Assembly (NCBI GenBank): GCA_012026795.1
Contig: VEPM01000002.1
Coordinates: 1-64,000, forward strand
DNA from: Candidatus Methanoperedens sp.
GTDB lineage: Archaea; Halobacteriota; Methanosarcinia; Methanosarcinales; Methanoperedenaceae
Length of the DNA stretch: 64,000 nt
Reading direction: 5' to 3'
Below the pieces are notes generated by a model that saw only the letters and a program-made list of their open reading frames with translations, made no database searches and had not been told where the DNA came from. Shown in pieces: positions 17,654 to 18,188 of this stretch (position 1 is the stretch's first letter; each line of letters opens with the position of its first letter). Both the position numbers and the translations under genes were made by a program.

Positions 17654-17875
17654 ACTCCATAACTTCTAAGTACGTTTAATTTCATTGACAAAACAAATGT
17701 TTACTGATGCTATGAAATCTTATATCTTATGCCCGCCTGTTTTTCAATAATTTATGGTTTGAAATTTCATCCCATTAGATACCTTTAATAACAATCGGAG
17801 GAATTATTAGCGACCCACAAGGGGCTGTGGCCTAGTCCGGCATGGCGACGGGCTCCAGCGGAAAACCGGAGAAAT

Positions 17876-17909
17876 CCGGGGTCAAGAGACCCCGGAATTA
17901 ATTCCGGGG
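17876..17909 (+). other. GC-rich hairpin and palindrome in the tRNA-Trp intron
   Basis: CCGGGGTC-AAGA-GACCCCGG (17876-17895) forms a perfect 8-base stem. It overlaps a perfect 20-base palindrome (17890-17909) with arms CCCCGGAATT. The two structures are mutually exclusive. They lie between exon 1 and box C and account for much of the extra intron length. Confidence 0.7.
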
Positions 17910-17913
17910 TGTA

Positions 17914-17980
17914 ATGATGAGCAACGGGTCTACCGAGTGAACCGGACGCGGTAAGCAATGAGGAACCGTTGGAGCACTGA
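17914..17980 (+). ncRNA. C/D box guide RNA inside the tRNA-Trp intron
   Basis: Box C is ATGATGA (17914-17920), box D' is CCGA (17933-17936), box C' is probably ATGAGGA (17958-17964) and box D is CTGA (17977-17980). The D' guide ACGGGTCT pairs with tRNA nucleotides 36-43, and the fifth base before D' falls on C39. The D guide TTGGAGC pairs with 31-37, and the fifth base before D falls on C34. This mirrors the Haloferax tRNA-Trp intron, which guides 2'-O-methylation at 34 and 39. Confidence 0.85.
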
Positions 17981-18188
17981 ACGTGCTGCTCAAAGATTAA
18001 ATTGCCAAAAACCTGGCATTTTCGGAGAGACCCGTCGATCGTGAGTTCAAATCTCACCAGCCCCACATTATAATAAAATAATTAGTATGGGCTTTGGATA
18101 TTCAGAACAGATACTAATTGCATTCTCTCTTTATCAGCCCTGATTGGAGAAAGAACTGCGAAAGGCAAGAGAATGTCAATGAGAATTT

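Follow-up and report, generated by a model that had tools for sequence, protein, structure and literature searches.

A tRNA-Trp intron in Candidatus Methanoperedens as a predicted box C/D guide RNA directed at C34 and C39 of the same tRNA

The tRNA-Trp gene and its intron

The tRNA-Trp(CCA) gene of Candidatus Methanoperedens at 17821-18064 is interrupted by a 171-nt intron (positions are those of the window, the 64,000-nt stretch of DNA that was analysed), which raises the question of whether this intron is simply spliced out or is itself an RNA that directs modification of its own tRNA. The initial annotation proposed the latter, with a dual-guide box C/D RNA that would methylate C34 and C39, and the intron interval that it gave is exact: the cloverleaf, the stem pairing and the BHB junction agree on it. 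The spliced tRNA-Trp is 73 nt long and has a cloverleaf fold. The splice junction matches the BHB motif, with a 4-bp helix between CUCC (17853-17856) and GGAG (18024-18027) and 3-nt bulges AG^C and AG^A, and the computed minimum-energy fold of the junction is the same arm in a slightly shifted register. ARAGORN, in its bacterial setting, did not call the tRNA-Trp gene at 17821-18064. Only one tRNA-Trp gene was found in this genome. Genomes of its genus match contigs named Methanoperedens.

Table 1. Features of the tRNA-Trp gene and of the predicted guide RNA in its intron
Feature	Position	Strand	Description	Basis
tRNA-Trp 5' exon	17821-17858	+	nt 1-37, ends CUCCAG; anticodon CCA at 17855-17857, C34 = 17855	
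Intron	17859-18029	+	171 nt, directly after nt 37 of the tRNA	BHB fit; 12/12 scored pairs formed in the anticodon, T and acceptor stems
Palindromic hairpin	17889-17910	+	perfect palindrome ACCCCGGAATTAATTCCGGGGT, upstream of box C	
Box C	17914-17920	+	AUGAUGA	
D' guide	17921-17932	+	GCAACGGGUCUA, N+5 G opposite C39	
Box D'	17933-17936	+	CCGA	
D'-C' linker	17937-17957	+	GACG tetraloop stem (ACCG-GACG-CGGU)	
Box C'	17958-17964	+	AUGAGGA; fourth-position G of UGAGGA able to pair with second C of D'	
D guide	17965-17976	+	ACCGUUGGAGCA, N+5 G opposite C34	
Box D	17977-17980	+	CUGA	
tRNA-Trp 3' exon	18030-18064	+	nt 38-73, C39 = 18031; CCA not encoded	

A box C/D guide RNA in the intron

The intron matches the Rfam sR3 family (RF01133) at 17910-17982 with 49.4 bits (E 3.9e-11; gathering score 41), although the score is 40.7, just below the cut-off of 41, when the whole genome is searched under stricter filters. 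All four boxes could be located, and together with the match above cut-off they confirm a dual-guide box C/D RNA inside the intron. The D' guide pairs with the tRNA over 8 bp, and the fifth base upstream of box D' is a G facing C39. The D guide pairs with the spliced tRNA over 7 bp, including one G.U, and its fifth base upstream of box D is a G facing C34. The D guide pairing is longer in the unspliced RNA, where 10 bp span the exon-intron junction (-20.5 kcal/mol, versus -11.5 for the 7 bp after splicing), and the computed strength of the D' guide pairing is the same for both RNAs. The C and D boxes are canonical, and the C'/D' pair UGAGGA/CCGA retains the tandem G.A core, with a G:C at 3b:3n as read from the sequence. 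The genome also has genes for the box C/D partner proteins fibrillarin and Nop, and for EndA and RtcB, which function in splicing and ligation.

The locus is very probably a tRNA-Trp(CCA) gene of an ordinary archaeal kind, with an sR3-family box C/D guide RNA as its intron and C34 and C39 of the same tRNA as predicted methylation targets. The sR3 reading follows from the RF01133 match, phylum-wide conservation, co-variation of guide and target, and pairing that is not due to chance. Intron-guided methylation at 34 and 39 is already published for H. volcanii and Pyrococcus, as is C39 as a target, and the find is real but ordinary. A review describes the box C/D RNA nested in the tRNA-Trp intron as selecting C34 and U39 (PMC4090602), and a 2018 review table names an intron guide for 'Cm34 and Um39 (or Cm39)' (PMC6313347). 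Methanoperedens thus joins the archaea whose tRNA intron is a guide, here a predicted one, for modification of its own tRNA.

The euryarchaeal sR3 (RF01133) has the same gene, intron site, box order, guides and targets, with C39 and guide G in the family consensus; the intron studied here differs in its CCGA D' box with UGAGGA C' box, and in its 171-nt length with an extra hairpin. The H. volcanii tRNA-Trp intron (Cm34, Um39) shares the gene and the mechanism, which is experimental in that organism (PMC5372725, PMC4090602) and sequence-predicted here, but its target is U39 rather than C39. H. volcanii is viable without this intron (PMC4090602). By its description Pyrococcus sR50 is similar, since it is also a tRNA-Trp intron that guides its own tRNA (PMC7994747), and C39 has been predicted as a target in P. 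furiosus (PMC7668247).

Conservation and co-variation of guides and targets

The sR3 element is present in 54 of 60 relatives and in 248 of the 392 genomes of the phylum. In all, 211 distinct arm-plus-intron sequences were read, from relatives, phylum genomes, named archaeal contigs and haloarchaea; searches by RF01133 and guide pattern favour intact guides, and these counts are therefore no measure of how frequently guides are lost. All 211 have an N+5 guide base that pairs with nt 34. Nucleotide 39 is a C in 190 introns, each with a guide G, and these 190 are all the introns outside the U39 haloarchaea. The other 21, all haloarchaeal, have U39 facing a guide A in 12 cases and a guide G in 9 (10 A-U and 7 G.U without four mis-parsed rows, L241 and L264-L266). 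Joint changes of guide and target are also seen at nt 41 (C-G to A-U) and nt 31 (G-C to A-U). One deep split carries most of the co-changes, so that the independent events are few. Conservation across Halobacteriota and co-variation agree with the N+5 targets first proposed for this intron.

C39 is the usual predicted target on the methanogen side of Halobacteriota. The contrast with the U39 of Haloferax, to which the initial annotation drew attention, holds as far as the base itself is concerned, but it is not peculiar to this genome, since C39 occurs in 190/190 introns outside the U39 haloarchaea. Neither C39 nor the CCGA box is unique to this genome, as both are found in other introns compared. 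Several haloarchaea (L254-L263) have a guide G instead of an A facing U39, which places a G.U at the methylation position.

The C'/D' kink-turn

The D' box does read CCGA, but the initial description of it as a weak form is incomplete, because it is matched by an altered C' box, UGAGGA. In the standard kink-turn of archaeal box C/D RNAs, position 3b:3n is a U:U (PMC5689011). In this intron the U:U is replaced by G:C, where the mapping of 3b and 3n onto box positions is our own and follows published nomenclature. Among the 190 C39 introns the combination is U:U in 118, G:U in 30, A:U in 10 and G:C in 32, and none of the 190 has a D' box with C at this position together with a C' U or A. Outside haloarchaea, CCGA without a matching UGAGGA was found in none of the introns compared. 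The haloarchaeal introns compared differ from this one in having mostly C:C at 3b:3n, in both C/D and C'/D'. The D'-C' linker of this intron corresponds to a paired linker that is longer in Methanosarcinaceae.

The G:C combination is found in 26 of 29 distinct Methanoperedens introns (one of the 26 has CCAA as its D' box) and in six Methanosarcinaceae introns, several of them named Methanosarcina, and it probably arose twice independently. By a published rule, metal ions are not enough to fold a kink-turn with a Watson-Crick pair at 3b:3n (PMC4382518), so folding of C'/D' would depend on L7Ae. The matched CCGA/UGAGGA boxes are a natural test of kink-turn rules.

Weakening of the D' guide

In Methanoperedenaceae, 8 of 29 distinct introns have a mismatch or a one-base deletion at D' guide positions 6-7, compared with 2 of 161 in the others (kinship uncorrected), suggesting that the C39-directing half may be under weaker selection in this family. 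None of the 29 has a defect at positions 2-7 of the D guide. It has to be considered whether Methanoperedens uses the D guide (C34) alone, with the D'/C' half a decaying relic retained mainly as structure. The invariant D guide beside the frequently defective D' guide would fit such decay, as would the mass-spectrometric survey of P. furiosus, which did not detect the predicted methylation of tRNA-Trp C39 (PMC7668247). However, the D' guide of this intron is intact, with 8 bp and its N+5 base on C39, the deletion alleles elsewhere still hold 6 contiguous pairs that include C39, and the C' and D' boxes vary in matched fashion, all of which make a relic improbable. Some sister species have an intact D' guide and others a damaged one, and they lend themselves to a comparison that would show if methylation at 39 is of consequence.

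We suggest, tentatively, that the C'/D' kink-turn went from U:U to G:C at 3b:3n by a matched pair of changes in Methanoperedens, and on a separate occasion in some Methanosarcina, likely via the G:U intermediate that is seen in Methanosarcinaceae. Taken with the loosening of the D' guide, such a switch would imply that the C39-directing half evolves apart from the C34 half.

Chance pairing and a tmRNA-like match

When the intron was dinucleotide-shuffled 20,000 times, a guide of at least 7 bp to the tRNA appeared in about 9% of the shuffles, and two such guides in 1%, but a pair aimed at C34 and C39 appeared in none. A plain spliced intron with coincidental guide complementarity could draw on the fact that the BHB is by itself enough for splicing, and on the frequency with which any single 7-bp guide appears in the shuffles. 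The absence of these two guides from all shuffles makes coincidence exceedingly improbable, and the conservation of boxes and guides across the phylum, with guide-target co-variation, already refutes it. A tmRNA-like gene over 17821-18068, to which a sub-threshold RF00023 match of 18.9 bits points, can be dismissed on anatomy, as the score is far under the gathering score of 47, a complete tRNA-Trp with BHB accounts for the locus, and the false match arises because tRNA-like ends flank a long insert.

Guiding, refolding and splicing

As an sR3-family guide, the intron would be bound at its C/D and C'/D' kink-turns by L7Ae, Nop5 and fibrillarin. Two nucleotides would then be 2'-O-methylated: C34, the wobble base, as directed by the D guide, and C39, which lies at the base of the anticodon stem, as directed by the D' guide. 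Guiding may take place in cis on the unspliced precursor, or in trans once the intron has been excised. EndA would then cleave the BHB, and RtcB would ligate the exons and probably circularise the intron; in T. kodakarensis the excised tRNA-Trp introns are circular (PMC9014305).

The D' and D guides are mutually complementary over 6-8 bp in most introns, which exceeds what is seen in shuffles of their non-target ends, and they pair with each other in the predicted splice-ready fold. The sequences involved differ, with CAACGG/CCGUUG in methanogens and CUCCAG/CUGGAG in haloarchaea. Refolding between guiding and splicing has been discussed in the literature (PMC5372725), and the guide-to-guide pairing is consistent with that.

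Intron length and hairpins

The tRNA-Trp introns of Methanoperedens are 122-209 nt long, nearly all of them longer than the range of 11-129 nt known as of 2014 (PMC4090602). In the longest, the extra length consists of hairpins, inserted either upstream of box C or downstream of box D. The palindromic hairpin of this intron is absent from the closest sister introns. Near copies of it are scattered in other Methanoperedens genomes (up to 6 in G017), apparently intergenic in the copies viewed, and similar hairpins occupy either of two sites in tRNA-Trp introns (L310-L317); it is possibly a small palindromic repeat element. Outside the guide RNA, the intron tail GUGCUGCUCAAAGAUUAAAU with a small hairpin (17980-18023) shows strong conservation in most members of the genus.

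Other candidate loci

Apparent second tRNA-Trp genes in three genomes were rejected: those in G009 and G025 have no tRNA 3' exon and resemble coding sequence, and in G010 the candidate is a fragment at a contig end. Where sR3 gave a second, weak match (G015, G026, G036, G049 and G053), the match is to a C/D RNA that stands alone and carries another guide. In free-standing box C/D RNAs (L299, L300, L301, L302 and L303, around 300-360) the D guide is AACCCUAUGAGUA; under the N+5 rule it would be directed at C34 in the CAU anticodon loop of elongator tRNA-Met.
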